Of a stretch of DNA of 64,000 bases, positions 45,383 through 63,982 are shown in pieces. Location: assembly GCF_023822025.1 (NCBI RefSeq), contig NZ_CP082909.1, positions 5,500,001-5,564,000 of the forward strand, in the 5' to 3' direction. The notes under the pieces are model-generated. The model was not told where the DNA came from, did no database searches, and saw only the letters and a program-made list of their open reading frames with translations. Position numbers and translations under genes: made by a program. Position 1 is the stretch's first letter; the number at the start of each line of letters is the position of its first letter. This DNA is from Endozoicomonas sp. 4G (GTDB lineage Bacteria; Pseudomonadota; Gammaproteobacteria; Pseudomonadales; Endozoicomonadaceae).

Positions 45383-45597
45383 AAAACACCTCCATGCCAA
45401 AAAAGCATCATATTTAATGTCTTATTTGGTTAACAACAATCAGTCGTCAGATATAAGACAATTTTCAAATGATTTCTTATTAATTATTTAAGACCAATAA
45501 ACTACGCTACTATTAATTTCAGATACGCTTTTACAGAACAAGTTACAGAACAGGCAGTACCTCTGTATTTTATTTTATTAATTCAGTGGCAGAAACT

Positions 45598-47775
45598 ATG
45601 AATTACAGTGCAGCTGCAGAAGATGCAAACGAAGAGTGGGGTATACCAGAGAGCGACCAACTGGAGTTTGACCCTCTATTGGAATGCCTCAGTATTCTAA
45701 CCAAGCATTATGGAAAGCCCTTTTCTCACGATTCCCTTCGTGCCGGGTTACCCCTTGAAAACGGCAAACTGACCGCAGAGCTATTTTCCCGGGCAGCCGA
45801 AAGAGCAGGCCTTGCGTCGAAAACCCATAAGAGAGCATTAAAAGATATCTCTCCTCTGGTCACGCCTACGGTTCTTTTTCTAAAAGAACGTAAAGCCTGC
45901 ATTCTGATTGATATTGATCATGAAGAAGAAAAAGCCCGGGTGATTATTCCTGAAGCGGGAGAAGGTGTTCAAGACATCGACCTTTCGGATCTGGAAGAGC
46001 ACTATACCGGCTACACCATTTATGTCCGGGAAAAACACCGGTATGACAAGCGCACCCCCACGACGCTGAATATTCGCTCCCGACATTGGTTCTGGGGCAC
46101 GATTCTTGGCTCCTGGAGAATTTACCGGGATGTCTTGCTGGCTTCCTTGCTGATCAATATTTTTGTGGTGGCCAGCCCGCTGTTTGTCATGAATGTTTAC
46201 GACAGAGTGGTGCCCAACCAGGCTTTTGATACCCTCTGGGTGCTAGCTGTGGGTGCCATTATTATCTTCAGCTTTGACTTCGTTCTGAAAATGATTCGAA
46301 GTTACTTTATTGACCTTGCAGGCAAAAAGTCGGACATACTGCTCTCATCCCGGGTGATGGAGCGGGTGCTGGGATTAAGCATGTCGGCCAAACCGGTTTC
46401 GGTCGGTTCCTTTGCCAAGAGCCTTCAGGAATTTGAGAGCATCCGGGAATTTATCACTTCATCAACGGTGATTGCTCTGGTGGATCTGCCTTTCACCCTG
46501 ATCATATTGATGGTGATTTTCATTCTGGGTGGTCCATTAGCTTACATTCCTGTGTTCTGTATGGCTCTGATAGCCCTGTACAGTTTTGCCATTCAGGCAC
46601 CTCTCAAGCGTTCTGTTGAGAAAACCCTGCGCTCCAACTCCCAGAAAAACGCCACCCTGATTGAAAGCCTTTCTGGCATGGAAGCCCTGAAGATTGCCCA
46701 GGCAGAGAGCGAAATTCAGTACAAGTGGGAAAAAGCAGTAGGCCACATAGCTACCTGGAGTATCAAAACCAAGCTATTGAGTTCTTCCGCATCAACCGTC
46801 AGTGCTTATGTTCAACAGATGTGTAACATTGCCCTGGTGTCTTACGGTGTGTTCCTGATTTCTGAGGGTGACCTCAGTATGGGTGGTCTGATTGCTACCG
46901 TTATGTTGTCAGGTCGATGCCTCGCGCCCATGGCTCAGGTAGCTGGCCTTGCCACTCGCTACAACCAGGCTAAATCGGCCCTGGATGGACTTAACGACAT
47001 CATGGATATGCCGGTAGAACGTCCAGCGGACCGTGACTACGTCAATCGTCCTGAGCTGGCCGGAAGTATCGAATTTGATGGTGTCAATTTCACCTATCCG
47101 GGTCAGGAGATCCAGGCGCTCAGAAACATCAGCCTGAACATCAAGCCTGGTGAGAAAGTAGCCATTATCGGTCGTATCGGTTCTGGAAAAACGACCATAG
47201 AGAAGCTGATTCTTGGTCTTTATGAGCCTAATGAAGGTGCCATCCGAGTCGATGGTATTGACCTGAGACAGATCAATCCTTCGGACCTTCGAAGCAGCAT
47301 TGGCTGTGTCTCTCAGGACATCACCCTGTTTTACGGAAGCATTAAAGAAAACATCACCCTCGGTGCCAGCTTCGTTGACGACGCCGCCTTGCTGAAAGCG
47401 GCTGAAATATCCGGTGTGACGGAATTCGCCAACAAGCACCCCAATGGCATGGACATGATCGTGGGCGAAAGGGGACAAAACCTCTCAGGTGGACAGCGAC
47501 AAAGTATCGCCTTAGCCAGAGCACTCCTGATGGACCCACCGATTCTGGTTCTGGATGAACCCTCCAGCTCCATGGATAACACCACCGAGTTGCGGGTCAA
47601 AGAGCAACTGAAAAAGCAATGCAAGGATAAAACCATTGTTCTGGTCACTCATAAGGCTTCCATGCTGGAGCTGGTTGATCGCCTGATTCTGGTGGATAAC
47701 GGCAAGATTGTTGCGGACGGACCCAAGGATCAGGTTCACGCCGCCCTTAAGCAGGGCAAACTCAAAATCGAATAA
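45598..47775 (+). CDS. lapB: Type I secretion ABC transporter, LapB-like
   Basis: Product of 725 aa from ATG 45598 (GTG 45586 would add four residues). Order: an N-terminal C39-peptidase-like domain without the catalytic Cys (about 30-150), six transmembrane helices (about 160-440), then an ABC domain with Walker A GRIGSGKTT, signature LSGGQRQS and Walker B ILVLDEPSSS. It matches LapB/RtxB exporters of giant adhesins. The adaptor and adhesin follow. No TolC-type outer-membrane gene is in the window. Confidence 0.93.
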   Translation: MNYSAAAEDANEEWGIPESDQLEFDPLLECLSILTKHYGKPFSHDSLRAGLPLENGKLTAELFSRAAERAGLASKTHKRALKDISPLVTPTVLFLKERKACILIDIDHEEEKARVIIPEAGEGVQDIDLSDLEEHYTGYTIYVREKHRYDKRTPTTLNIRSRHWFWGTILGSWRIYRDVLLASLLINIFVVASPLFVMNVYDRVVPNQAFDTLWVLAVGAIIIFSFDFVLKMIRSYFIDLAGKKSDILLSSRVMERVLGLSMSAKPVSVGSFAKSLQEFESIREFITSSTVIALVDLPFTLIILMVIFILGGPLAYIPVFCMALIALYSFAIQAPLKRSVEKTLRSNSQKNATLIESLSGMEALKIAQAESEIQYKWEKAVGHIATWSIKTKLLSSSASTVSAYVQQMCNIALVSYGVFLISEGDLSMGGLIATVMLSGRCLAPMAQVAGLATRYNQAKSALDGLNDIMDMPVERPADRDYVNRPELAGSIEFDGVNFTYPGQEIQALRNISLNIKPGEKVAIIGRIGSGKTTIEKLILGLYEPNEGAIRVDGIDLRQINPSDLRSSIGCVSQDITLFYGSIKENITLGASFVDDAALLKAAEISGVTEFANKHPNGMDMIVGERGQNLSGGQRQSIALARALLMDPPILVLDEPSSSMDNTTELRVKEQLKKQCKDKTIVLVTHKASMLELVDRLILVDNGKIVADGPKDQVHAALKQGKLKIE

Positions 47776-47832: not shown

Positions 47833-49362
47833 ATGAGCGACTACAAGGACGATAAAAACGCTTCTGAATTACCAGAAGATCAACCGGCTTCAGATACTCA
47901 ACCAACGACTCCGCCGGAGACAGCGTATGAATCGAGTTCTGAGGATCAGCAAGCCGTGACTGAAGAAGTCATAGTGGATGATCGTGAAGAACTGGACAGA
48001 CAGGTTGAAGAAGAGGAAATCCTGGAGAATACGGCTTCATTAGAAGACAATGTCAGCCCGGAAGACCTGGAGTACATGTCTGATACCAGTGCCGCCATGC
48101 TTATGAAAGCACCAACAGGCGGCAGGTTGCTCATTTACACCATGTTGCTGGCTATTGGCTCAGCCATCACCTGGGCCAGTCTGGCACCATTGGATGAAAT
48201 CACCCGGGGTATGGGTGAAGTCGTTCCCTCTTCTCATCTACAGGTCATTCAGAACTTTGAAGGCGGCATACTGGAAGAGCTTTATGTCCGTGAGGGCGAG
48301 CTGGTCAAGGAAGGGCAGCCACTGCTGCAACTGGATGATACCCGCTTCAAATCTACTTTCAGGGAAGGCGCTGTTGAGTATTACAGTGAGCTGGCCAGAG
48401 CCGCCAGACTCAGGGCTGAACTGTCTGGCAATCCACTGAAGTTTCCTCCTCAATTAAATGATTATCAGGATTATGTTGACCGGGAAATCCAGATTTACCA
48501 GAGACGCGATGCCGGGCTCAAAGCTGAGCTGGATATTGTCAACAAACAAGCATCCCAGGCCAAACATGAACTGGCCGCTTCCGAGTCACAGCTGGAGTTT
48601 TTAACCACCAGTCTGGAGCTGGGAGAAGAAGAGCTGGAGCTGACCAACCCCCTGGCTGAGCAAGGCGTGGTTTCCCATGTAGAAATGATTCAACTCAAGC
48701 AGAGAGTGAATGATCTGGCTTCCGAGAAGAATATGACAGAGCTGTCCATTCCCAAGTTGAGCGAAGCTTACCAGGAGGCTCTGGCACGTAAGCGGGAACT
48801 GACGGTCAAATTCCGGGAAGAAGTGGTGCAGGAGCTGAAGGAATCTGAAGTCAAACTGGATCAAATGTCTGAAACACAAACCAGCCTGGAAGACCAGGTG
48901 GTCAGGACACTGCTTCGCTCACCGGTTGAAGGCATTGTTAAAAAGATTAATGTCAAAACGGTAGGCGGCGTTATACAGCCTGGCATGGATGTCATGGAAA
49001 TTGTTCCTGTAGAGGAATCCCTCTTGGTTGAAGCCCAGATCGCTCCTAAAGATATAGGCTTTCTCAGGGAAGGTATGAAGTCTGTGGTCAAACTGACAGC
49101 CTATGACTTTGCCGTCTATGGTGGGCTTGAGGGTGTGGTAGACCATATAAGTGCCGATACCATCAAAGATGAAAAAGGCGAAAGTTTCTACATCGTTCGC
49201 GTCAGAACCCATGAAAACCAGCTTGGCAACCCTGAAAAACCGCTGGAAATCATCCCGGGTATGAAGGCTAACATCGATATTATCACCGGAGAAAAAACCC
49301 TGATGGAATATCTGATGAAGCCAATTCTCAGGGCCAGGCAGAATGCTCTGACTGAGCGGTAG
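47833..49362 (+). CDS. lapC: HlyD-family type I secretion adaptor, LapC-like
   Basis: Product of 509 aa. An unusually long acidic cytoplasmic N terminus (about 1-95) precedes a single transmembrane helix (LLIYTMLLAIGSAITWASL). A barrel-sandwich/lipoyl motif (ILEELYVREGELVKEGQPLL), a long coiled coil and the beta-barrel C terminus (LRSPVEGIVKKINVKTVGGVIQPGM) follow. It bridges the inner-membrane ABC exporter to an outer-membrane channel. It lies 57 bp from lapB and 20 bp from the adhesin, one operon. Confidence 0.94.
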   Translation: MSDYKDDKNASELPEDQPASDTQPTTPPETAYESSSEDQQAVTEEVIVDDREELDRQVEEEEILENTASLEDNVSPEDLEYMSDTSAAMLMKAPTGGRLLIYTMLLAIGSAITWASLAPLDEITRGMGEVVPSSHLQVIQNFEGGILEELYVREGELVKEGQPLLQLDDTRFKSTFREGAVEYYSELARAARLRAELSGNPLKFPPQLNDYQDYVDREIQIYQRRDAGLKAELDIVNKQASQAKHELAASESQLEFLTTSLELGEEELELTNPLAEQGVVSHVEMIQLKQRVNDLASEKNMTELSIPKLSEAYQEALARKRELTVKFREEVVQELKESEVKLDQMSETQTSLEDQVVRTLLRSPVEGIVKKINVKTVGGVIQPGMDVMEIVPVEESLLVEAQIAPKDIGFLREGMKSVVKLTAYDFAVYGGLEGVVDHISADTIKDEKGESFYIVRVRTHENQLGNPEKPLEIIPGMKANIDIITGEKTLMEYLMKPILRARQNALTER

Positions 49363-49382: not shown

Positions 49383-52300
49383 ATGAATTCCAATTCTGAT
49401 GGTTCCAGACCTGTTATTGGTCATGTTCAGGATACCGATGGCGATGTATTCGCCATCGCTCCTGATGGCAGCAAACGCATTCTTAAGGAAGGAGATCCAC
49501 TCTATCTCAATGAGAGGGTCGTCTCCGAATCCAGTGGCCCTGTCTCTATTCTTCTCGTTAATAGTGAAGTCATTCAGCTGGAGGGGCAGTCCCAGCTGGT
49601 TATGCTGGAGAATATGCTTCAAACTGCATCACCTTCTGATGCTAAGCTGTCATCAGAAATCGAAGAGATACTGGATGCTAATGCAGACAGGGCAGGTTCT
49701 GCCGAAATTCCCCCTATTAAAGTTAATCCTGTTGACGTTGCTGAGCTCTCTTCATCAGAAGAGCCCGACAGTTCCTCTCAAGATCCTGGCCCGGAAGTAA
49801 GTAATGGCTTCTCCAGTGAAGTCGTAGTGGTGGAAAGAGAGGCCACAGAATTAGAAGAGCAAAGCAAGACAAAGCCGCTATCGGAATCATCAGAAGAGAT
49901 TGAACAACCGCTTAAATCCATCGAACCACTGCCGGTATCCGAACGATACCATGAAGTATTAACTGCTTCCGTTCCTGTCAATTATGCACCCACCGCTCAA
50001 AACATGGTGATGGGAAGCAGTGAAAGCGCGACAGAGCTTGAAGGCAAGCTCCAGGCTTACGACGCCAACTCCGGGGAAGCGCTAAAGTTCAGTCTGGTCA
50101 CTGCTCCTGACTCAGGGCAGTTGATACTGAATGACGATGGTAGCTTTCGCTTCCTGCCCGGCAGTGACTTCGATTACCTTGCGGCAGGTGAACAATCGGT
50201 TGTCACTTTTGTTTTTCAAGCCAAAGACAGCAGGGGTGCCAGCTCAAGAGCTTCTGTTGATATCACCATTACAGGTGAGAGTGATGTCGGCGATGCCCCG
50301 GAAACTGCCGAGCCTGTATTAGCCGAGCTTGTTCAGAGTGATGGGGAAACGACCATCGATCTGCTCTCTCAGGCTTTTGACAAGGATCCTTCAGAAACCC
50401 TCTCGGTGACTCAGTTACGCCTGACTGAGGGCAATGAGGCGGGTGTCAGTATTGGTCTGGACGGCAGCAGTCTGAGTGTTGACCCTGAGGCCTATAAATA
50501 TCTGGCTGCTGGAGAAACAGAAACCCTGACCTACGAATATCGGGTCACGAATTCCCGGGGAGAGTCTGTTTTAGAGTCTGTCACCATTACGCTCTCAGGC
50601 GACAATGATCAGCCTCAGGTCAGAGAAGCTGTCATCCAGACGTTCGATAAGAACAGCGATGACTTTAACGTTGACCTCTTGGCAGGTGCGTTCGACCTGG
50701 ATGCATCAGACAGCCTTAAGGCCGTCTCTCTCAAGATAACCGCCGGTGATCCTTCAGGTATTACTATCGCGGACGATGACAACAGCCTTGCTGTGGATGC
50801 ATCTGCTTATGAGCATCTGGCGGCAGGTGAATCTGAAGTGATCGAGTACAGCTACGAAATAGAAGACGGGCAGGGTGGTGTTGTCAGTCAGAGTGCGTCC
50901 ATTACCATTGAGGGCAGCAATGATAATCCGGAAGATATTGATCTATCCGGAACCCGTATTGATGAAAATCAGGATGGTGCAGTTGTGGGTACTTTGTCTA
51001 CCACAGACAAAGATCTTTCTGACACTCACACCTACACCGTCGATGACCATCGCTTTGAAGTGGTAGACGGCGATCTCAAGCTGAAAGAAGGTATAGCCCT
51101 TGACCACGAAACCGATGAATCCGTTGATGTTAAGGTGACAACGACTGATGTTGATGGTGCCGCCTATTCAGAGAGCTTTACCCTTGAAGTCAACGACATC
51201 AACGAAGCACCCGTTGTGGGGAATGTTGATCTCATCATTTCTGTCAATGATGCTCCGGTTTCGGCAGGTACGCTGGTGACATCCGACGAAGATACACCTT
51301 ATATCTTCAGCACATCCGACTTCGCCTTCACTGACCCGGATGCCGGGCAGACACTGCAAAGCATCAAAATTACTCAGTTGCCTCTGGCAGGTGCGCTGCT
51401 CTTTAACGGATCAGCTGTTACTGCGGGTATGGAAGTGACAAAAAGTGAGCTGTTGGCAGGCCGGTTGAAATTTGAGCCGACTCAAAACGAACATGGCAAC
51501 CTTTACGCCTCATTCGAATTTCAGGTCAGTGATGGCCAACTTTTCTCATCTTCAGCGACTTTCGACTTCAGCATTACATCGGTCAATGATGACCCAACGG
51601 TCAGCTCTGCCATTGCGAAAAATGTTGTTGAAGACTCGGCTTCAGTCAACATCGACCTGCTTGAGTCTGCTGCAGATGTTGATGTTGGTGATAATCTCTC
51701 CGTGACTCAGATCACCCTGTCATCTGGTGACGACTCTGGCATCACCATCAATGGCAACATCCTTACCATTGACCCCGGTGCCTATGACTATCTTCCCGAC
51801 GGAGTGACTGAAACCATTGTCTACAGCTATGACATTGAAGACGGCAATGGTGGTTCAGTTGCCCAGACTGCCACTCTGGTCATCACTGGTACAAACGACA
51901 CCGCACAGATAACAGGCCTTGATACAGTAACCGTAGCTGAAGACAGTCATGCCAGCACACTCACAACATCAGGCTCCCTGACTGTCATTGATGCTGACCA
52001 GGGAGAGGCCAGTTTCACCGCAGAGACCATCACCGGCAGTTACGGTTCACTGACCATTAATGCCAGTGGTAGTTGGAGCTATTCGGCCAGTAACAGCCAG
52101 GCCGATATTCAGGCTTTGGGCAATGGTGACAGCTTGACCGAGACCCTGACGGTTCGGTCTTTGGATGGCACTACACACAATATCGTTATTAACATCAATG
52201 GCACCAACGATGTGGCAGTTATCACTGGCGATGATACTGGCAGCGTCACTGAAGACGTCGGCAACACCTTGATGACCTCCGGCACTCTGAGTGTCACCGA

Positions 52301-55300
52301 TGTTGATGGCGGCGAAGCCAGTTTCACAGCAGAAACCATCACTGGCAGCTACGGTTCACTGGCCATCGCCAACAACGGAAGCTGGAACTATTCGGCCAGT
52401 AACAGTCAGGCCGATATTCAGACCTTGGGCAATGGTGACAGCCTGTCCGAGACCATCACCGTGAAGTCTCTGGATGGCACCACCCACAATATCGTCATTA
52501 CCATCAATGGCACCAACGATGTAGCGGTGATCACGGGCGATGACAGTGGCAGCGTCACTGAGGATGCTGGCAACACCCTGATGACCTCAGGCACCCTGAG
52601 TGTCACCGATGTTGATGGTGGCGAAGCCAGTTTTACCGCAGAGACCATCACCGGCAGCTACGGTTCACTGACCATCGCCAACAATGGAAGCTGGAACTAT
52701 TCGGCCAATAACAGTCAGGCCGATATTCAGGCTCTGGGCAATGGTGACAGCCTGACGGAGACCCTGACGGTTCGGTCTCTGGATGGCACCACCCACAATA
52801 TCGTCATTACCATCAACGGCACCAACGACGCGGCAGTCATCACTGGCGATGACAGTGGCAGCGTCACTGAGGATGCTGGCAACACTCTGATGACCTCCGG
52901 CACCCTGAGTGTCACCGATGTTGATGGTGGCGAAGCCAGTTTCACCGCAGAGACCATCACCGGCAGCTACGGTTCACTGTCCATTAATGCCAGTGGAAGC
53001 TGGAGCTATTCGGCCAGTAACAATCAGGCCGATATTCAGGCTCTGGGGGATGGTGACACCCTGACCGAGACCCTGACGGTGAAGTCTCTGGATGGCACCA
53101 CCCACAATATCGTTATTACCATCAATGGCACCAACGATGCAGCGGTGATCACTGGGGATGACAGTGGCAGCGTCACTGAGGACGCCGGCAACATCCTGAT
53201 GACCTCCGGCACCCTGAGTGTCACCGATGTTGATGGCGGCGAAGCCAGTTTCACCGCAGAGACCATCACTGGCAGCTACGGTTCACTGACTATTAATGGC
53301 AGTGGTAGCTGGAGCTATTCGGCTAATAACAACCAGGCTGATATTCAGGCTCTGGGGGATGGTGATACCCTGACCGAGACCGTCACCGTAAAGTCTCTGG
53401 ATGGCACTACCCACAATATTGTCATTACCATCAACGGCACCAACGACGCGGCGGTGATCACGGGTGATGACAGTGGCAGCGTTACTGAAGACGCCAGCAA
53501 CACCTTGGTGACCTCCGGCACCCTGAGTGTCACCGATGTTGATGGCGGCGAAGCCGGTTTTACCGCGGAGACCATCACCGGCAGCTATGGTTCACTGACC
53601 ATCGCCAACAACGGAAGCTGGAACTATTCGGCCAATAACAGTCAGGCCGATATTCAGGCTCTGGGCAATGGTGACAGCCTGACGGAGACCCTGACGGTTC
53701 GGTCTCTGGATGGCACCACCCACAATATCGTCATTACCATCAACGGCACCAACGACGCGGCAGTCATCACTGGCGATGACAGTGGCAGCGTCACTGAGGA
53801 TGCTGGCAACACTCTGATGACCTCCGGCACCCTGAGTGTCACCGATGTTGATGGTGGCGAAGCCAGTTTCACCGCAGAGACCATCACCGGCAGCTACGGT
53901 TCACTGACTATTAATGGCAGTGGTAGCTGGAGCTATTCGGCTAGTAACAACCATGCTGATATTCAGGCCTTAGGGGATGGTGACAGCTTGACCGAGACCA
54001 TCACAGTAAAGTCCCTGGATGGCACCACCCACAATATCGTTATTACCATCAATGGCACCAACGATGCAGCGGTGATCACTGGCGATGACAGTGGCAGCGT
54101 CACTGAGGACGCCGGCAACACCCTGATGACCTCAGGCACCCTGAGTGTCACCGATGTTGACGGAGGCGAAGCCAGTTTCACCGCAGAGACCATCACCGGC
54201 AGCTACGGTTCATTGATCATTGATGCCAGTGGTAGCTGGAGCTATTCGGCCAGTAACAGTCAGGCCGATATTAAGGCTCTGGGCAATGGTGACAGCTTGA
54301 CCGAGACCATCACCGTAAAGTCCCTGGATGGCACCACCCACAATATCGTCATTACCATCAATGGCACCAACGATGTAGCGGTGATCACGGGCGATGACAG
54401 TGGCAGCGTCACTGAGGATGCTGGCAACACCTTGATGACCTCCGGCACCCTGAGTGTCACCGATGTTGATGGTGGCGAAGCCAGTTTCACCGCAGAGACC
54501 ATCACCGGCAGCTACGGTTCACTGACTATTAATGGCAGTGGTAGCTGGAGCTATTCGGCTAATAACAACCGGGCTGATATTCAGGCTCTGGGGGATGGTG
54601 ATACCCTGACCGAGACCGTCACCGTAAAGTCTCTGGATGGCACTACCCACAATATTGTCATTACCATCAACGGCACCAACGACGCGGCGGTGATCACGGG
54701 TGATGACAGTGGCAGCGTTACTGAAGACGCCAGCAACACCTTGGTGACCTCCGGCACCCTGAGTGTCACCGATGCTGATGGCGGCGAAGCCAGTTTCACA
54801 GCAGAGACCATCACTGGCAGCTACGGTTCACTGACCATTAATACCAGTGGTAGCTGGAGCTATTCGGCCAGTAACAGTCAGGCCGATATTCAGGCTCTGG
54901 GCAATGGTGACAGCTTGACCGAGACCATCACCGTAAAGACTCTGGATGGCACCACCCACAATATCGTTATCACCGTTAACGGCACCAACGATGCGGCAGT
55001 AATCACTGGCGATGACAGTGGCAGCGTCACTGAGGACGCCGGCAACACCCTGATGACCTCAGGCACCCTGAGTGTCACCGATGTTGATGGCGGCGAAGCC
55101 GGTTTTACCGCGGAGACCATCACCGGCAGCTACGGTTCATTGATCATTGATGCCAGTGGTAGCTGGAGCTATTCGGCCAGTAACAACCATGCTGATATTC
55201 AGGCTCTGGGCGATGGTGACAGCCTGTCCGAGACCATCACCGTAAAATCTCTGGATGGCACCACCCACAATATCGTTATTACCATTAACGGCACCAACGA

Positions 55301-58300
55301 CGCGGCGGTGATCACGGGTGATGACAGTGGCAGCGTCACTGAAGACGCCAGCAACACCTTGGTGACCTCAGGCACCCTGACTGTCACCGATGTTGATGGC
55401 GGCGAAGCCAGTTTCACAGCAGAAACCATCACTGGCAGCTACGGTTCACTGACTATTAATGGCAGTGGTAGCTGGAGCTATTCGGCCAGTAACAGCCAGG
55501 CCGATATTCAGACTCTGGGCGATGGTGACGCCCTGACCGAGACCATCACCGTAAAGTCTCTGGATGGCACCACCCGCGATATCGTCATTACCATCAACGG
55601 CACCAACGACGCGGCAGTCATCACTGGCGATGACAGTGGCAGCGTCACTGAGGACGCCGGCAACACCCTGACGACCTCCGGCACCCTGACTGTCACCGAT
55701 GTCGATAGCGGCGAAGCCAGTTTCACCGCAGAGACCATCACCGGCACCTACGGTTCACTGACCATTAATGGCAGTGGTAGCTGGAGCTATTCGGCCAGTA
55801 ACAGCCAGGCCGATATTCAAACTCTGGGCAATGGTGACAGCCTGTCCGAGACCATCACCGTAAAATCTCTGGATGGCACCACCCACAATATCGTTATCAC
55901 CATTAACGGCACCAACGATGCTGCGGTCATCACTGGCGATGATACTGGTAGCGTCACTGAGGACGCCGGCAACACCCTGACGACCTCAGGCACCCTGACT
56001 GTCACCGATGTTGATGGCGGCGAAGCCAGTTTCACCGCAGAGACCATCACTGGCAGCTACGGTTCACTGGCCATCGCCAACAACGGAAGCTGGAACTATT
56101 CGGCCAGTAACAGTCAGGCCGATATTCAGACCTTGGGCAATGGTGACAGCCTGTCCGAGACCATCACCGTAAAGTCTCTGGATGGCACCACCCACAATAT
56201 CGTTATTACCATCAACGGCACCAACGACGCGGCGGTGATCACGGGTGATGACAGTGGCAGCGTCACTGAGGATGCCAGCAACACCTTGGTGACCTCCGGC
56301 ACCCTGACTGTCACTGATGTTGATGGCGGCGAAGCCGGTTTTACCGCGGAGACCATCACCGGCAGCTATGGTTCACTGACCATTAATGGCAGTGGTAGCT
56401 GGAGCTATTCGGCCAATAATAACCATGCTGATATTCAGGCTCTGGGCAATGGTGACAGCTTGACCGAGACCCTGACGGTTCGGTCTCTGGATGGCACTAC
56501 CCACAATATCGTTATTACCATCAACGGCACTAACGACGCGGCAGTCATCACTGGCGATGACAGTGGCAGCGTCACTGAGGATGCTGGCAACACCCTGATG
56601 ACCTCAGGCACCCTGATTGTCACCGATGTTGATGGCGGCGAAGCCAGTTTTACCGCAGAGACCATCACTGGCAGCTACGGTTCACTGACTATTAATGGCA
56701 GTGGTAGCTGGAGCTATTCGGCTAGTAACAACCATGCTGATATTCAGGCCTTAGGGGATGGTGACAGCTTGACCGAGACCATCACAGTAAAGTCCCTGGA
56801 TGGCACCACCCACAATATCGTTATTACCATCAATGGCACCAACGATGCAGCGGTGATCACTGGCGATGACAGTGGCAGCGTCACTGAGGACGTCGGCAAC
56901 ACCTTGATGACCTCCGGCACTCTGAGTATCACCGATGTTGATGGCGGCGAAGCCAGTTTCACCGCAGAGACCATCACCGGCAGCTACGGTTCACTGGCCA
57001 TTAATGGCAGTGGTAGCTGGAGCTATTCGGCCAGTAACAGCCAGGCCGATATTCAGACTCTGGGCGATGGTGACACCCTGACCGAGACCATCACCGTGAA
57101 GTCTCTGGATGGCACCACCCACAATATCGTTATTACTATTAATGGCACCAACGACGGTCCAGCTATTGATGCGGGTACGGCGGACCAGTCTGCAACCGAA
57201 GAACAGGCATTCAGCTACCAATTACCTGCAAACGCTTTTTCCGACATAGACGGTGACAACCTGACTTATTCTGCCACGCTGGATGATGGCAGTCCGTTAC
57301 CCGCATGGCTGTCATTCGATCCATCCAATGGCACTTTTTCCGGGACACCCGATGACCCGGATCTTGGACAAATCACCATCAAAGTGACTGCCAGCGACGG
57401 CGTCCTCAGTGTTTCAGACCAATTCAAGATTAATGTTGTCGGGGTCAACGATGCTCCGGAACTGGTTGGCAGCATTAATAATCAGACTGTGGCGGAAGAA
57501 TCTGCTTTCAGTTACACCATACCCGCCAATGCCTTCTCCGACGCAGAGGGCGACGCACTGACTTACAGTGCCAGCCTGGCCAATGGCAATCCCTTGCCCG
57601 CCTGGCTGACGTTCGATGCCGCAACCCGAACCTTTAGCGGAACACCTGATGATCCTGATGTTGGCAATCTGTCAGTCAGGATTTCCGTTTCGGATGGTTC
57701 AGAGACAACAGATGTTTTGTGGTCAATCGATGTCACAGCTGTCAACGATGCCCCTGAATTATCAAGCAGTCCTCTCATCGAAGGAGTTGAGGCAGCCTAC
57801 AGTTTCTCAGATAACACGGATATCTCAGGTAACGGTAACAACCTGACCCTGAATGGCAATGCCACATTGGGCAGCGGACATAACGGTGGCCAAGCCTTGG
57901 AACTGGATGGTAGCTCCAGTAGTAGTGGTGAGATTTCGGGGCTTAAGATAGGTGGAGCCCTGACCATTTCTGCCTGGGTGAAATACGACAGCTTTAGTCA
58001 AGGCTGGTCCAGGGTAATAGACTTCGGTGATGGCTTTGCTGACAACAATATTCTACTTTCCCGTGTCGGCACAGGTAGTGGTCTCGCCTTTCAAATTTTC
58101 GATGGAGCAGGCTACCCCGCAGACGGAGAGCTTATTATCAGCGACTTCTTTACTGAAGGAGAGTGGGTTCATGTGACCGCCACTGTTGATGATAGCGGGG
58201 CGATGCGGGTCTATAAAGACGGAGAGCTGGCCGGAGAGAATCTCAACGGGGCTTTGATTCCTGAGATTGTCAGATCAAACAACTACGTCGGCAGGAGTCA

Positions 58301-61300
58301 TGGGATCAATGATGCTAGTATGGACGGCTCAATAGGCGATCTTGCTATTTTCAACACTGGCCTCAGTGCTCATCAGGTCAAAGCCGCCTATCAAGCTGAC
58401 TCGGTAGCAAATCTCGTCAGCGATGCCTTCCATGTCATCGAACAGAGTGCCAACGGCACTGTCCTGGGTTCAGTAACGGCAACGGATGTTGATAGTGCCA
58501 GTAACCTACTGACTTACTCATTGACGAACGATGCCGGTGGCCGCTTCGCCATTAACAGTGTAACCGGTGAAATTTCCGTGGCTGACAGCACTCTGCTGGA
58601 TCATGACAGCAACGCTTCGCACACCATTACGGTGCAGGTCAGTGATGGCCAGCTCAGCAGCACCCACAATTACACGGTTTACCTGACAGAATCCACGCTA
58701 TTTTCCGATGAGGACACAAGCTACACCCTGACACTGACCGACCTGAGTAGCAGCGGTCAGGAAGCGGATGCAATGACTCAAATCAAGGTATCCACTTTAC
58801 CGGACGAGGGAAGCCTGAAGCTTAATGGCGTTGTTGTGACAGCAAATCAGGTCATCAGCAAAGCAGATATTGAAGCAGGCCTGCTGGTATTTGAGCCAGA
58901 CAGTGACGAGAACGGTAATAACTACACATCTTTCGGCTTTCAGGTATACGACGGCAGTAGCTATTCTGGTGAGCACACCCGGACATTTGATATTGTCGCG
59001 GTTAATGATGCACCTATTGCACCCGCAGCAGTGGTTGAAAAAATAGATTTTGTCTGGGGTGGCGCGTCCATTACCAACAAGTCTGCTGATTCTTTTAATT
59101 TGCCGAATGGCTTCGAGCTTGGTGATTCTGTCTGGTTGATTAAAACAGGCGGAAGTTACAGCAAAGGGGTCAAAATCCAGATCACCGAGAACCAGAACGG
59201 CACTCTCAACTTCAAAGCAATTGAAGCCAAATACACCGATCTGGCCACCTGGAACAGCCTCAGTAGCGCACAGAAAACGACCTACTTTGAAACAGCGGGT
59301 ACAGCGACATCGGTTGCGACGTCCAACAGCGATATAGGCTATGGCATCAGTGACATAGCCGTGAACGGTGGCAGTGCAGTCTCCGGATTCCTGGATACCG
59401 CTACGGGTAAAAACGTTGATCCTTTATCTGCCGTTGAAAACAGCTCAAATGGCACCGTAGTAGGCTCTGTCAAAGCCACCGACGCAGAGGGTGATAACCT
59501 GGTTTACAGCCTGACTAATGATGCAGGTGGCCGATTTGCTATCAATAGCGCTACCGGAGAAATTACTGTTGCCGACGGCAGTCTTCTGGATTATGAAGCA
59601 TCCAGCACCCACGCCATTGCCGTTCAGGTCAGTGACGGTCAGCTAACGTCACAACAGAACTACACCATTCAGATCAGCGATACCAACGATGCTCCTGAAC
59701 TCTTGGGCAGTCCCCTCATAAGCGGAGTTGAGGCCGCTTACAGTTTCTCAGATAACACGGACATTTCAGGCAATGGTAACAACCTGACCCTCAGTGGCAG
59801 TGCCACATTGGGCAGCGGACATAACGGTGGCCAGGCCTTTGAAATGGATGGTAGCTCCGGCAGTGGCGAAATTTCAGGGCTTAAGTTGGGTGGAGCCATG
59901 ACCATTTCTGCCTGGGTGAAATACGATAGCCTGAGCCAGAACTGGTCGAGGATAGTGGACTTCGGTGATGGTTCTGCCAACAACAACATTCTCCTTGCCC
60001 ATATTGGCACCGGTAATGCACTGGCGTTTGAAATCTTTGATGGAGGCTCCAAGGTCGGGCAGCTCCATATTAACAACTTCTTTACCGCGGGCGAGTGGCT
60101 TCATGTGACCGCTACTGTTGATGATAATGGGGTAATGCGGGTCTATAAAAACGGTGAGCTGGCCGGGGAGAATCTCAACGGAGCTGCACCTCCGGAGATT
60201 GTCAGATCAGGCAACTATATCGGAAAAAGTCACTGGAATGATGGTCATCTGGACGGTTCCATAGGTGAACTTGCTATTTTCAACACTGGCCTGGGTGCTC
60301 ATCAGGTCAAAGCCCTCTATGAAGCTGACTCGGTAGAAAATCTCGTCAGCGATGCCTTCCATGTCGTCGAACAGACTGCCAACGGCATTGTTCTGGGTTC
60401 AGTAGCGGCAACGGATGTTGATAATGCCAGTAACCAACTCACTTACTCATTGATTAACGACGCTGGTGGCCGCTTCACCATTAACAGTGCAACCGGTGAG
60501 ATTTCAGTGGCTGACAGCACACTGTTGGATCATGACAGCAACGCATCTCACACCATTAGGGTGCAGGTGAGTGATGGCCAGCTCAGCAGTACTCGCGATT
60601 ATACGGTTTATGTCAACAGCAGCACGCTGTCTGCCAATGAGGATACCAGCTATGCCCTCACTCTGACCGATCTGAGTCACAGCGCTCAGGAAGCGGCTGA
60701 CATGACCCAGATCAAGGTATCAACCTTACCTGATGAGGGAAGCCTGAAGCTGAATGGCGTTGCTGTGACGCAAGATCAGGTCATCAGCAAAGCGGATATT
60801 GAAGCAGGTCTTCTGGTCTTTGAACCAGACAGTAACGAAGCCGGTGATGACTACACTTCTATCGGCTTTAAAATACACGACGGTAATAGTTATTCTGGTG
60901 AGTATACCCGGACATTTGATGTGGCAGCGGTGGCGGACAGCGTCACTATGAATAATATCAGCTCTGAAGTATTGAATAGTACTTTTGATGGCAACAATGC
61001 TGACGGCTGGCAACGAAGCAACCCTTATGGCATCAATTATTCATTGGTTAAGAACAATCAGCTGCATAATTATCATTTAACTGAGAGCTATAGAAACATC
61101 GACACCAGTGACAGCTCAGTACAGACTTACGAATTAACATTTACTCTGAATCATATGAGGAATCTTCATCATACTACTAATATCTGGGTGAAATGGAATG
61201 GACAGACAGTCGCAACCTATTCAGAAGCTCCTGGTTCAGGTACCCATACATCAACCAAAACCATCCTGTTAAATGCTACCGGTAATCCCAGTACAGAGCT

Positions 61301-63008
61301 CCGATTCGACGAAAGCTCCAACGAATTCACTGCGGACAATATCCGAATCACCAAAGTGCGTGCTACGGATGAGGATACCGCTTTCAATCTGCCGGATCTC
61401 GGCATTACCCAGGTCGACACCGACGGTTCTGAAACGCTGACCGTTTCTGCCAATGGCGTACCTGCCGGAGCAGTCCTCACTGATGGCAGCCACTCGATAA
61501 CAGCAGATGGCACCGCTGTCGATATTTCCGGCTGGGACTTCGCTAACCTGCAGATAACACCACCGGCAGACAGCACAGATACCATGAATCTGACGTTCAC
61601 AGCCACCACGACAGAAAGTAACGGTGACAGTTCATCAGTCAGTGAGAGCTTGTCCATCAGGGTCAACTCGGTAGACGACAAGCCGGTATCATCAGACAAC
61701 AGTCTTTTATTAAAACAGACGGACAGTTACACCTTCAGTGCAGAAGATTTCAGCTTCACCGACGTTGATGCCGGTGACAGCCTGCAATCCGTTACTATCA
61801 CCACTCTGCCCGCTTCCGGATCTTTAACGTTGAATGGTGCAGCGGTGACGGCTAATCAGGTCATCACCGCAGCAGACCTTGGCAATCTGACCTATACAGC
61901 CCCAGCGACTAATCCGGATGTTGGCACCAGCTTTGGCTTTACGGTGAGCGATGGCAGTCTTTCCAGTGACCCACAGACGTTCACTCTAAATGTGAGAGGC
62001 GCCTACTCTCAAAACCTTCTGACCAATAGCAGTGGCCAGAATGGCACCTCGGACTGGAACATTATTGAAAACGGTGGTGACGGCTGGGCTTCAACACATA
62101 TCAGTCATGATGGCGACGGTAAGGGATGGGTTACCTCCCACGAATGGGCTAAAAAGTCACAAACGATAGACCTTGTGGCCAAAGGCTTCACCGAACAGTA
62201 TCTTGACTCCGCTCCTGACATCGGTGTCAGTGACTGGTTTAAAGATACCCACCTTGATGATGATTATTACCTGAAAGTTGAGCTGCGAGACGCCAGCAAT
62301 AATGTCATTACCTCTTACAATTCCGGGACACTGACTGCAAGCGACAACTGGCAGGAAGCTGCCAGCACGTTCAGTAATTATGGTGCCGGTGTCCGTTATA
62401 TTTATTTTGAACACGGTGGTAGAGACCAGGAAGGCTGGGCTGGCAACTACGGGGCTGTCATTGATGACTCGAAAGTGTTTTTAAAGGTTGGCGATGTTGA
62501 TCTCGTGGGTACCCATTCCGGAGAAATTATCGATGGTACAGCCCAGTCCGACACGATCAAAGGTGAAGGCGGTGCCGACACCCTTATCGGTGATGCCGGG
62601 GACGACCTGATCTTTGGTGGTGCGGGTGAGGATATCATCACAGGCGGAGTAGGCGATGACACTCTCACCGGTGGTGATGACAGCGACACCTTTGTCTGGC
62701 TCTCGTCTGACCTGGGGTCAGTGGCGACGCCTGCCCAGGATATCATCAAGGACTTTAACACAGGCTCCGGCGGGGACATTATCGATCTGAGTGATGTTCT
62801 GGTGGATGATTCAATTTCTCTGGATCAATACCTGAACCTGAATTTCAGTAACGGCGACACCACTATCGAAGTGATGCCGGGCGCTGACGGCAGTGTGACC
62901 CAGAAGATCAAGCTGGAAGGCGTTGATCTCTCAAACTACGGGGGAGGCGGCACCGAGGCGCAAATCCTGAACAACCTGCTCAACGACGGCAACCTTCAAA
63001 TCGACTGA
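49383..63008 (+). CDS. Giant LapA-type adhesin with VCBS repeats, LamG and FBA-like domains
   Basis: Product of 4,541 aa. Order: a LapA-type retention module (1-80, GHVQDTDGDVFAIAPDGSKR); an acidic linker; cadherin/Ig-like repeats (about 200-835); 17 VCBS-type 103-aa repeats (836-2587); two dystroglycan-cadherin-like domains; LamG-like domains (about 2795-3005 and 3440-3650) with cadherin-like modules between; a galactose-binding-like module (about 3857-3993); an F-box-associated-like domain (about 4208-4370); RTX GGxGxD repeats (about 4376-4438); and a type I secretion C terminus. AAGGGG precedes the start. No LapG-type TAAG/PAAG site is visible in the first 230 residues. It probably remains attached to the cell surface and binds host glycans and matrix. 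Confidence 0.94.
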   Translation: MNSNSDGSRPVIGHVQDTDGDVFAIAPDGSKRILKEGDPLYLNERVVSESSGPVSILLVNSEVIQLEGQSQLVMLENMLQTASPSDAKLSSEIEEILDANADRAGSAEIPPIKVNPVDVAELSSSEEPDSSSQDPGPEVSNGFSSEVVVVEREATELEEQSKTKPLSESSEEIEQPLKSIEPLPVSERYHEVLTASVPVNYAPTAQNMVMGSSESATELEGKLQAYDANSGEALKFSLVTAPDSGQLILNDDGSFRFLPGSDFDYLAAGEQSVVTFVFQAKDSRGASSRASVDITITGESDVGDAPETAEPVLAELVQSDGETTIDLLSQAFDKDPSETLSVTQLRLTEGNEAGVSIGLDGSSLSVDPEAYKYLAAGETETLTYEYRVTNSRGESVLESVTITLSGDNDQPQVREAVIQTFDKNSDDFNVDLLAGAFDLDASDSLKAVSLKITAGDPSGITIADDDNSLAVDASAYEHLAAGESEVIEYSYEIEDGQGGVVSQSASITIEGSNDNPEDIDLSGTRIDENQDGAVVGTLSTTDKDLSDTHTYTVDDHRFEVVDGDLKLKEGIALDHETDESVDVKVTTTDVDGAAYSESFTLEVNDINEAPVVGNVDLIISVNDAPVSAGTLVTSDEDTPYIFSTSDFAFTDPDAGQTLQSIKITQLPLAGALLFNGSAVTAGMEVTKSELLAGRLKFEPTQNEHGNLYASFEFQVSDGQLFSSSATFDFSITSVNDDPTVSSAIAKNVVEDSASVNIDLLESAADVDVGDNLSVTQITLSSGDDSGITINGNILTIDPGAYDYLPDGVTETIVYSYDIEDGNGGSVAQTATLVITGTNDTAQITGLDTVTVAEDSHASTLTTSGSLTVIDADQGEASFTAETITGSYGSLTINASGSWSYSASNSQADIQALGNGDSLTETLTVRSLDGTTHNIVININGTNDVAVITGDDTGSVTEDVGNTLMTSGTLSVTDVDGGEASFTAETITGSYGSLAIANNGSWNYSASNSQADIQTLGNGDSLSETITVKSLDGTTHNIVITINGTNDVAVITGDDSGSVTEDAGNTLMTSGTLSVTDVDGGEASFTAETITGSYGSLTIANNGSWNYSANNSQADIQALGNGDSLTETLTVRSLDGTTHNIVITINGTNDAAVITGDDSGSVTEDAGNTLMTSGTLSVTDVDGGEASFTAETITGSYGSLSINASGSWSYSASNNQADIQALGDGDTLTETLTVKSLDGTTHNIVITINGTNDAAVITGDDSGSVTEDAGNILMTSGTLSVTDVDGGEASFTAETITGSYGSLTINGSGSWSYSANNNQADIQALGDGDTLTETVTVKSLDGTTHNIVITINGTNDAAVITGDDSGSVTEDASNTLVTSGTLSVTDVDGGEAGFTAETITGSYGSLTIANNGSWNYSANNSQADIQALGNGDSLTETLTVRSLDGTTHNIVITINGTNDAAVITGDDSGSVTEDAGNTLMTSGTLSVTDVDGGEASFTAETITGSYGSLTINGSGSWSYSASNNHADIQALGDGDSLTETITVKSLDGTTHNIVITINGTNDAAVITGDDSGSVTEDAGNTLMTSGTLSVTDVDGGEASFTAETITGSYGSLIIDASGSWSYSASNSQADIKALGNGDSLTETITVKSLDGTTHNIVITINGTNDVAVITGDDSGSVTEDAGNTLMTSGTLSVTDVDGGEASFTAETITGSYGSLTINGSGSWSYSANNNRADIQALGDGDTLTETVTVKSLDGTTHNIVITINGTNDAAVITGDDSGSVTEDASNTLVTSGTLSVTDADGGEASFTAETITGSYGSLTINTSGSWSYSASNSQADIQALGNGDSLTETITVKTLDGTTHNIVITVNGTNDAAVITGDDSGSVTEDAGNTLMTSGTLSVTDVDGGEAGFTAETITGSYGSLIIDASGSWSYSASNNHADIQALGDGDSLSETITVKSLDGTTHNIVITINGTNDAAVITGDDSGSVTEDASNTLVTSGTLTVTDVDGGEASFTAETITGSYGSLTINGSGSWSYSASNSQADIQTLGDGDALTETITVKSLDGTTRDIVITINGTNDAAVITGDDSGSVTEDAGNTLTTSGTLTVTDVDSGEASFTAETITGTYGSLTINGSGSWSYSASNSQADIQTLGNGDSLSETITVKSLDGTTHNIVITINGTNDAAVITGDDTGSVTEDAGNTLTTSGTLTVTDVDGGEASFTAETITGSYGSLAIANNGSWNYSASNSQADIQTLGNGDSLSETITVKSLDGTTHNIVITINGTNDAAVITGDDSGSVTEDASNTLVTSGTLTVTDVDGGEAGFTAETITGSYGSLTINGSGSWSYSANNNHADIQALGNGDSLTETLTVRSLDGTTHNIVITINGTNDAAVITGDDSGSVTEDAGNTLMTSGTLIVTDVDGGEASFTAETITGSYGSLTINGSGSWSYSASNNHADIQALGDGDSLTETITVKSLDGTTHNIVITINGTNDAAVITGDDSGSVTEDVGNTLMTSGTLSITDVDGGEASFTAETITGSYGSLAINGSGSWSYSASNSQADIQTLGDGDTLTETITVKSLDGTTHNIVITINGTNDGPAIDAGTADQSATEEQAFSYQLPANAFSDIDGDNLTYSATLDDGSPLPAWLSFDPSNGTFSGTPDDPDLGQITIKVTASDGVLSVSDQFKINVVGVNDAPELVGSINNQTVAEESAFSYTIPANAFSDAEGDALTYSASLANGNPLPAWLTFDAATRTFSGTPDDPDVGNLSVRISVSDGSETTDVLWSIDVTAVNDAPELSSSPLIEGVEAAYSFSDNTDISGNGNNLTLNGNATLGSGHNGGQALELDGSSSSSGEISGLKIGGALTISAWVKYDSFSQGWSRVIDFGDGFADNNILLSRVGTGSGLAFQIFDGAGYPADGELIISDFFTEGEWVHVTATVDDSGAMRVYKDGELAGENLNGALIPEIVRSNNYVGRSHGINDASMDGSIGDLAIFNTGLSAHQVKAAYQADSVANLVSDAFHVIEQSANGTVLGSVTATDVDSASNLLTYSLTNDAGGRFAINSVTGEISVADSTLLDHDSNASHTITVQVSDGQLSSTHNYTVYLTESTLFSDEDTSYTLTLTDLSSSGQEADAMTQIKVSTLPDEGSLKLNGVVVTANQVISKADIEAGLLVFEPDSDENGNNYTSFGFQVYDGSSYSGEHTRTFDIVAVNDAPIAPAAVVEKIDFVWGGASITNKSADSFNLPNGFELGDSVWLIKTGGSYSKGVKIQITENQNGTLNFKAIEAKYTDLATWNSLSSAQKTTYFETAGTATSVATSNSDIGYGISDIAVNGGSAVSGFLDTATGKNVDPLSAVENSSNGTVVGSVKATDAEGDNLVYSLTNDAGGRFAINSATGEITVADGSLLDYEASSTHAIAVQVSDGQLTSQQNYTIQISDTNDAPELLGSPLISGVEAAYSFSDNTDISGNGNNLTLSGSATLGSGHNGGQAFEMDGSSGSGEISGLKLGGAMTISAWVKYDSLSQNWSRIVDFGDGSANNNILLAHIGTGNALAFEIFDGGSKVGQLHINNFFTAGEWLHVTATVDDNGVMRVYKNGELAGENLNGAAPPEIVRSGNYIGKSHWNDGHLDGSIGELAIFNTGLGAHQVKALYEADSVENLVSDAFHVVEQTANGIVLGSVAATDVDNASNQLTYSLINDAGGRFTINSATGEISVADSTLLDHDSNASHTIRVQVSDGQLSSTRDYTVYVNSSTLSANEDTSYALTLTDLSHSAQEAADMTQIKVSTLPDEGSLKLNGVAVTQDQVISKADIEAGLLVFEPDSNEAGDDYTSIGFKIHDGNSYSGEYTRTFDVAAVADSVTMNNISSEVLNSTFDGNNADGWQRSNPYGINYSLVKNNQLHNYHLTESYRNIDTSDSSVQTYELTFTLNHMRNLHHTTNIWVKWNGQTVATYSEAPGSGTHTSTKTILLNATGNPSTELRFDESSNEFTADNIRITKVRATDEDTAFNLPDLGITQVDTDGSETLTVSANGVPAGAVLTDGSHSITADGTAVDISGWDFANLQITPPADSTDTMNLTFTATTTESNGDSSSVSESLSIRVNSVDDKPVSSDNSLLLKQTDSYTFSAEDFSFTDVDAGDSLQSVTITTLPASGSLTLNGAAVTANQVITAADLGNLTYTAPATNPDVGTSFGFTVSDGSLSSDPQTFTLNVRGAYSQNLLTNSSGQNGTSDWNIIENGGDGWASTHISHDGDGKGWVTSHEWAKKSQTIDLVAKGFTEQYLDSAPDIGVSDWFKDTHLDDDYYLKVELRDASNNVITSYNSGTLTASDNWQEAASTFSNYGAGVRYIYFEHGGRDQEGWAGNYGAVIDDSKVFLKVGDVDLVGTHSGEIIDGTAQSDTIKGEGGADTLIGDAGDDLIFGGAGEDIITGGVGDDTLTGGDDSDTFVWLSSDLGSVATPAQDIIKDFNTGSGGDIIDLSDVLVDDSISLDQYLNLNFSNGDTTIEVMPGADGSVTQKIKLEGVDLSNYGGGGTEAQILNNLLNDGNLQID
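51888..57143 (+). repeat. Seventeen 309-bp VCBS-type repeats
   Basis: From the first GTND codon at 51888 to the last at 57144 the sequence is 17 units of 309 bp, the first longer by one codon. Units carry TGSVTEDAGNTLMTSGTL, DVDGGEASFTAETITGSYGS and SLDGTTHNIVITINGTND. They differ at a handful of bases and at a few switch positions (ANNGSWN versus NGSGSWS versus NASGSWS). Such near identity implies recent amplification and ongoing gene conversion. Confidence 0.95.
62004..62493 (+). other. FBA-like glycan-binding domain within the adhesin
   Basis: Residues about 4208-4370 follow the F-box-associated domain of FBXO2/FBXO6 and fish NCCRP-1 in order: NLLTNSSGQNG, NGGDGW, KKSQTIDLVAKGF..YLDS, VSDWF, YYLKVELRDASN, TFSNYGAGVRYIYFEHGGRDQEGW and YGAVIDDSKV. 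In FBXO2 this fold binds N-glycan chitobiose, and the contact Trp is kept while neighbouring Tyr and Lys are replaced. Confidence 0.8.
62517..62694 (+). other. RTX calcium-binding repeats of the adhesin
   Basis: About six nonapeptide-type units (GEGGADTLIGD, AGDDLIFGGAGED, GVGDDTLTGGDDSDTF) just before the C-terminal type I secretion region. They fold on Ca2+ outside the cell. Confidence 0.9.
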
Positions 63009-63016
63009 CCCGACAG

Positions 63017-63982
63017 TCATTCGATTAAAGTTTCCCCATCCAGATCTGTGCGGTTCAGAGTCCAGGCACCAACGTCAGAATCGCGAATCATAGCACCAAT
63101 AAAAGAGCTTTGATTAAACCGGGCATGACTGAACTCGGCCTGATCAATGGTAATGTGATCCAAACGACAGTGGTTAAATGATGGGCTTTCTTCCAGGCTG
63201 TAACACTCCCTGAACTGACCCTGATCAAAAATCACCTTGTTGAACTCGGTGCCTTCCATTAAAGCTGAATCCATCTCGACCCGGGTAAAATGACTGTTCG
63301 AGATCCGGGTCCGAACCAGCTGGGGAATATTGAATTCGCAATCTGTCATAACCACCTTGTTCAGAGTGCTACCTGAAAACACCGGCCCTTCCTGAAAACT
63401 GTCGCAGCCCCTGAACTGACACTCTTCCATCAACACATTATTGAAGTGAGTGCTGGTCAGTGTGCAATCCCTGAATTCCATATTCCTGAGCTGGGAACCG
63501 GTAAAGTTGGCATCATCCAAAAAGCCCTGAACCATCTGGCTGTTATGCATTTTTAAGCCCATGCATGAACTGTTATGAAAACTTTGAGCACCCATATTGC
63601 AGCTATCAATCACCGCATTATCCAGACAACTCTGGTCAAAATTAACAGCAAACAAATTGCAATCCACCAGACGGGCGTCATCCAGCCGACAATGCCTCAG
63701 GTCCGCACCTTCCAGAGAGGAATCTTCGAAGATAGCACCCTTCAGATCAGCACCTCTGAAATCAGCCCCTGATAAATCACAGCCTTTAAATCGGGCTCCC
63801 CGCAACCGAGCCTTTCTGAAGTTGCTGCCTTTCAGGTCCGTTTGGTTAAAACAAACCCTTTCAAGATCTCTGCCTTTCAGCATTGCACCTTTCAGTACCC
63901 ATCTGGAAGGCAGGTTCATTCCGGGATGTAAAAGATCAAGACGTTCGCTGGTCAAATCATCAGGTGCCGAAGTGCTGGTCAC
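63017..63982 (-). CDS. Pentapeptide-repeat protein
   Basis: Product of 321 aa from GTG 63982, but the frame stays open to the window edge, so the true start may lie outside and the gene may be 5' partial. From about residue 30 it is a continuous array of A(D/N)LxG-type pentapeptides (LKGSNFRKARLRGARFKGCDLSGADF and similar), predicted to form a right-handed quadrilateral beta-helix. Role unknown: some members mimic DNA and inhibit gyrase, others are scaffolds or secreted. It is convergent with the adhesin, with an 8-bp gap. Confidence 0.85.
   Translation of the reverse strand: MTSTSAPDDLTSERLDLLHPGMNLPSRWVLKGAMLKGRDLERVCFNQTDLKGSNFRKARLRGARFKGCDLSGADFRGADLKGAIFEDSSLEGADLRHCRLDDARLVDCNLFAVNFDQSCLDNAVIDSCNMGAQSFHNSSCMGLKMHNSQMVQGFLDDANFTGSQLRNMEFRDCTLTSTHFNNVLMEECQFRGCDSFQEGPVFSGSTLNKVVMTDCEFNIPQLVRTRISNSHFTRVEMDSALMEGTEFNKVIFDQGQFRECYSLEESPSFNHCRLDHITIDQAEFSHARFNQSSFIGAMIRDSDVGAWTLNRTDLDGETLIE

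Follow-up and report, generated by a model that had tools for sequence, protein, structure and literature searches.

Bacteria of the genus Endozoicomonas live in association with marine animals, and the window analysed here, a stretch of 64,000 nt from Endozoicomonas sp. 4G (contig NZ_CP082909.1, positions 5,500,001 to 5,564,000, forward strand), contains the gene of a giant type I-secreted adhesin with an F-box-associated (FBA) domain close to its C-terminus, a domain that serves animal cells in the intracellular recognition of sugar chains. The permease/ATPase and HlyD adaptor genes of a type I secretion system (T1SS) lie upstream of the adhesin gene on the same strand, and the features of the locus, in positions of the window, are as follows.

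45586..47775, + strand: type I secretion permease/ATPase, LssB type (NCBIfam TIGR03375, 1008.9 bits against a cut-off of 693.1)
47833..49362, + strand: HlyD-family periplasmic adaptor (NCBIfam TIGR01843, 413.2 bits against a cut-off of 208.65)
49383..63008, + strand: giant type I-secreted adhesin of 4,541 residues with VCBS/cadherin-like repeats (open frame, Pfam, NCBIfam)
49416..49679, + strand: possible LapA-type N-terminal retention module (NCBIfam NF033682, residues 12-99)
59868..60308, + strand: Laminin_G_3 domain (concanavalin A-like), the better of two stretches (Pfam PF13385, residues 3496-3642)
60936..61380, + strand: possible further jelly-roll domain between the second laminin G stretch and the FBA, with a weak likeness to 3-keto-disaccharide hydrolase (PF06439, E 2.3e-4, 21.7 bits, below the cut-off of 26.8)
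62004..62493, + strand: FBA domain (PF04300), adhesin residues 4208 to about 4370 (Pfam, Protein Data Bank (PDB) sequence match, genome search)
62586..62690, + strand: RTX calcium-binding nonapeptide repeats, best stretch (Pfam PF00353, residues 4402-4436)
62739..62996, + strand: C-terminal type I secretion target domain (NCBIfam TIGR03661, T1SS_VCA0849, E 5.2e-18)

Searching the excised stretch against Pfam led to FBA (PF04300) as the single family at E ≤ 1, scoring 133.6 bits (E 8e-39, curated cut-off 32.4 bits), and the match spanned model positions 7-173 of 175. This profile search had been set beforehand as a check of the first-pass annotation, whose claim of an FBA domain it upheld, and the sequence blocks named there are present in the translation of 62004-62493 as NGGDGW, KSQTIDL, DW, SNYGAGVRY and FEHGGRD...W. 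When the whole protein was scanned, the FBA match was again detected at residues 4208-4365 (window 62004-62477, E 1.5e-36), and a genome-wide search gave this same place as the single FBA match in the source genome, with 0 of 14 control genomes matched by the profile. NCBIfam returned no family for the excised stretch at E ≤ 0.01. When PDB sequences were searched, eight distinct chains came up at E ≤ 1, every one of them FBXO2, FBXO6 or FBXO44, with chain 2rj2 (Fbs1/FBXO2) at the top (E 1.7e-27). The likeness to these three proteins runs near full length by profile as well as by PDB match; Fbs1 and the window domain share 60 of 158 paired residues, and 30 positions that are invariant across 11 bacterial rows hold the same residue in Fbs1. 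At the level of sequence, the window positions 62004-62493 are thereby confirmed to encode a complete, genuine FBA domain. Plant F-box-associated domains, which are filed under other Pfam entries, are alike in name only; the match of the window is to PF04300. NCCRP1 (FBXO50) contains an FBA domain too, and was placed at the cell surface by earlier work, whereas its authors conclude that it is cytoplasmic and, in the part of their paper drawn on here, leave sugar binding aside (PMC3210139).

The first-pass annotation had further put the domain at the tip-proximal end of a surface adhesin, which agrees with its surroundings: T1SS genes, RTX repeats and VCBS/cadherin-like repeats were all found (Cadherin_4 in 27 stretches by Pfam, VCBS_repeat in 18 stretches by NCBIfam), and the FBA adjoins the C-terminal, distal end as the final domain ahead of the RTX repeats and the secretion signal. 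NCBIfam also assigns the 4,541-residue protein to the BapA/Bap/LapF family of large adhesins. T1SS export and long repeats are common to this protein and the LapA-type RTX adhesins (M. primoryensis, V. cholerae FrhA, A. hydrophila AhLap), for which the ligand-binding region is reported just before the RTX repeats, the same place as that of the FBA in the window, and tip domains are reported to determine which surface the adhesin grips (PMC12077191). Their tip domains, as given in the parts of these reports used here, are ice-binding, PA14, peptide-binding, carbohydrate-binding, RTX-like or vWFA domains, not FBA, and the term 'F-box' is absent from the AhLap paper. The tip region of the window adhesin may hold several ligand-binding domains. 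Compared to Fbs1, the window protein differs in having no F-box match, in carrying its FBA inside a secreted adhesin and in having His, Gly and Trp in place of Phe, Tyr and Trp at the sugar pocket. No F-box was among the 11 Pfam families matched by the whole protein at E ≤ 1, and scans of nine relatives over the stretches that bear the FBA gave none either at E ≤ 0.001; neither in the window protein nor in these stretches was an F-box found fused to an FBA. A real domain that one would not expect here, the FBA occupies a place where a function is plausible, and tip domains of RTX adhesins are already known as a kind.

Within the Endozoicomonadaceae, FBA was detected at 15 places in 12 of 37 genomes and six of eight genera, and for the genus Endozoicomonas in four of ten genomes. 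One of the 15 places has an internal stop and was excluded from the comparisons, leaving 14 unbroken rows. In G030 (contig 119, L035), the FBA match of an FBA-RTX gene is broken by an in-frame stop; the counterpart in G029 is uninterrupted. The closest relative, 88% identical, is from Endozoicomonas sp. ISHI1 and was the sole result of a single-protein scan of genome contigs, which detects close relatives only. The bacterial rows as a whole are diverse, with pairwise identity down to 18%.

In nine of the 14 unbroken rows the FBA stands ahead of RTX repeats or of a C-terminal module of the window type, as seen by Pfam for the window, G009, G004, G012, G013 and G029a and by module match for G008, G030a and G029b. 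The protein of G012 (L019) continues after the FBA with RTX, PA14 and HpiC1-like domains; matches to the HpiC1-like domain (PF22825) were observed in the tails of G012 (L019) and G001 (L068), with E 3.8e-37 and 4.3e-33, respectively. In G017, G027a and G018 the FBA is part of proteins of 914, 914 and 1,939 residues with another, mutually similar tail, and the G017 protein, the only member of this trio scanned, gave no RTX match by Pfam. Two further proteins without RTX match are that of G027b, with 422 residues and one hydrophobic stretch before the FBA (topology by eye), and that of G035, with 536 residues, a signal-like start (by eye) and a polysaccharide-lyase match just below cut-off. The C-terminal module of the window type has matches in 33 of the 37 family genomes. 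Ten tails without FBA were scanned by Pfam, which detected FBA in none of them, seven were compared to the window by BLAST, and three were aligned residue by residue. G002 and G003, from the same genus, have the same cadherin-like and RTX domains with few residues between them, at the place where G004, the window and others have the FBA, and the tail of G010 has a different domain there. As two congeners with the same flanking modules do without it, the FBA behaves as an exchangeable tip cassette. The leftover residues of G002 and G003 resemble the first residues of the FBA, which hints at a loss, although a plain linker would also be possible. In a tree of 14 C-terminal modules, eight with and six without FBA, G004 (with FBA) joins G002 and G003 (both without) at 83/89, and the FBA label requires three changes. 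HpiC1-like and PA14 domains are possible other exchangeable tip modules.

The reading that we favour, with a probability of roughly two in three, is that the FBA of the window is a module of lectin fold that came from an animal and now serves a LapA-like T1SS RTX adhesin as an exchangeable tip domain for ligand binding. An ancestor within the Endozoicomonadaceae would have taken the FBA from an animal. During export, the C-terminus of the adhesin would leave the cell first and come to lie at the far end, with the N-terminus held at the outer membrane. Since the sugar pocket of Fbs1 is located opposite its F-box side, the two ends of the FBA would be turned towards the stalk and the pocket away from it, where it could make contact with glycans or glycoproteins of the host animal.

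Several observations weigh against this reading and are given here and for the pocket below, together with the alternatives that they touch. An AlphaFold model from a two-row alignment (the window domain and L005, its relative at 88% identity) reached a mean predicted local distance difference test (pLDDT) of 35, too low for use, and the ten-stranded beta-sandwich fold of the FBA family is therefore assigned through sequence homology to the solved Fbs1. NF033682, searched in the N-terminal 300 residues, gave E 4.1e-11 and 43.3 bits, below its cut-off of 50 bits, and was absent from the match list of the NCBIfam scan of the whole adhesin. The LapG protease (PF06035) had no match in the source genome (0/1), with the control Caulobacter vibrioides matched, so that a regulated release in the manner of LapA is unsupported. 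Concerning the origin, acquisition from an animal is probably the economical reading of the distribution, and the acquisition from a host suggested by the first-pass annotation is in line with 12 of 37 genomes in the family and a single sub-threshold match outside it. This match belongs to G184, the sole carrier from outside the family among the six genomes matched in an order-wide sample of 292, with 28.6 bits, below the cut-off; in the family of G184 an FBA-like match was found in one of five genomes. The class and phylum samples contained FBA in the source genome itself only (1/369 and 1/398, or 0/368 and 0/397 with this genome set aside), and another class of the same phylum gave 0/385, with no positive anywhere in that sample, which calls for caution on its sensitivity; these samples may overlap, and all profile searches lie within one phylum. 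By tblastn, neither 72,556 plasmid nor 50,697 phage records showed a relative of the FBA, and viral contigs gave none with either the single protein or a 12-row alignment. The diversity of the bacterial rows, a composition that is not foreign and the sub-threshold relative in another family could also reflect an FBA that is old in bacteria and was passed to animals, or that reached both from an unsampled source; against this stand the absences from the class, phylum, other-class, plasmid and phage sets and the presence of FBA proteins in many vertebrates (PMC3210139), and we regard it as the most improbable of the alternatives weighed here.

The trees of FBA rows used a single animal sequence, FBXO2, none of them was rooted, and the direction of the transfer from animal to bacterium rests on the distribution. 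A tree of 16 FBA rows was unreliable, with 0 of 13 inner branches well supported and long branches for G184, G035 and G029b; FBXO2 groups there with the divergent G035 and G027b (91/96), which is not relied on and leaves room for more than one acquisition. Omitting the four most divergent rows gave a 12-row tree with FBXO2 alone on a long branch, which provides no direction. The base composition of the FBA stretch is ordinary, ranking 10 of 42 for GC content and 12 of 42 for GC content at third codon positions (GC3) among windows of the 3' part of the gene, indicating that a transfer, if any, would not be recent; a recent transfer was dismissed as unsupported on these values. As an observation on G184 itself, which belongs to another family of the order, its protein (contig 181, L036) has 1,270 residues, an AbfB domain besides the sub-threshold FBA-like stretch, and a HEFGH zinc-protease-like motif (by eye).

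For the sugar pocket, Phe177, Tyr279 and Trp280 of Fbs1 are reported as essential for the contact to GlcNAc-GlcNAc (GlcNAc, N-acetylglucosamine) (PMC4603797). In an alignment of 15 bacterial rows (G184 and 14 from the family), the window FBA has His, Gly and Trp at these positions, with two of the three replaced, and Leu and Ala opposite Asp216 and Lys281 of Fbs1. At position 177, five rows have Tyr, six including the window have His, four have another residue and none has Phe; Tyr279 is retained in six rows and Trp280 in 12, the window among the latter, and the set Tyr, Tyr, Trp is found in five (G012, G013, G017, G027a and G035). When 157 columns of the 11 closer rows are ranked by variability, positions 177 and 279 exceed 73% and 85% of the columns and Trp280 exceeds 24%, a ranking that is no test of selection. 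The row of the window is also about nine residues shorter than Fbs1 between beta2 and beta3, which makes the alignment uncertain there, and is shorter between beta5 and beta6 as well. FBXO44 has Tyr, Tyr and Trp at the key positions and yet is reported to bind no sugar, because its loops differ (PMC4603797), and conserved sequence alone is therefore no predictor of sugar binding. An engineered Fbs1 with Tyr at the equivalent of Phe177, plus other changes, binds N-glycans well, indicating that Tyr at 177 is compatible with binding (PMC5457524).

The first-pass annotation had proposed binding of host high-mannose glycoproteins for this copy, i.e. a functional N-glycan lectin like Fbs1. The near-full-length match with its identity to Fbs1, the retained Trp280, the tip position and the Tyr, Tyr, Trp set of five other bacterial rows would suit such a function, but Phe177 has become His and Tyr279 Gly, the beta2-beta3 and beta5-beta6 stretches are shorter, and FBXO44 fails to bind even with all three aromatic residues, so that we consider it doubtful. 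As two of three key pocket residues differ from Fbs1, the ligand is probably something other than a Man3GlcNAc2 core bound as in Fbs1; binding of the N-glycan core should not be taken for granted in the window copy with its His and Gly, and high-mannose specificity was set aside as leading claim on the pocket residues. It is also quite unlikely that the FBA is a mere structural beta-sandwich spacer or folding cap beside the RTX repeats, without a ligand of its own. The beta-sandwich-type repeats that make up the adhesin, the congeners that do without FBA and the variable pocket positions would all fit a spacer, but the domain is present as a single, unrepeated copy where ligand-binding domains sit, occurs also in proteins without RTX match (G017, G027b, G035) and retains Trp280 in 12 of the 15 rows.

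Going beyond the favoured reading of an animal-derived tip module, we tentatively suggest, at less than even odds, that the FBA may have been captured without its ubiquitin-ligase half, turning a lectin domain of cytosolic glycoprotein surveillance in animals into an extracellular tip module. The pockets could since have diversified among symbiont species, some remaining aromatic as in the Fbs proteins and FBXO44 and others, including that of the window, being remodelled for different host glycans, and a host-derived domain might thus help to set host attachment. To our knowledge, host recognition by Endozoicomonas is largely unsettled, and the FBA offers a single expressible domain for probing it. 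An animal-type fold for N-glycan recognition at an adhesin tip, which in the samples searched is almost restricted to one family of marine animal symbionts, would tie the attachment of symbionts to the glycobiology of their hosts; it would also be an example of an intracellular quality-control domain put to use outside the cell. Natural copies of both kinds, five with Tyr, Tyr, Trp and others remodelled, allow a comparison of the features by which an FBA binds sugar. A literature search by title and abstract opening, with preprints outside its scope and few subscription papers covered, found no published description of an FBA domain in a bacterium; the nearest is a review of the family, in which F-box domains are described as enriched in Kistimonas (PMC12491435).

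F-box matches (PF00646) occur elsewhere in the Endozoicomonadaceae, in 28 of 37 genomes, and are widely expanded, at times to very large numbers, with at least 118 in G009, at least 141 in G033 and at least 51 in G008. The source genome has eight, with sites on contig 1 outside the window near 429735-434012 and 5707904. On the 3' side of the adhesin gene and convergent with it lies a gene for a pentapeptide-repeat-like protein (window 63017-63982, - strand), whose 19 NCBIfam matches all stay below their cut-offs.

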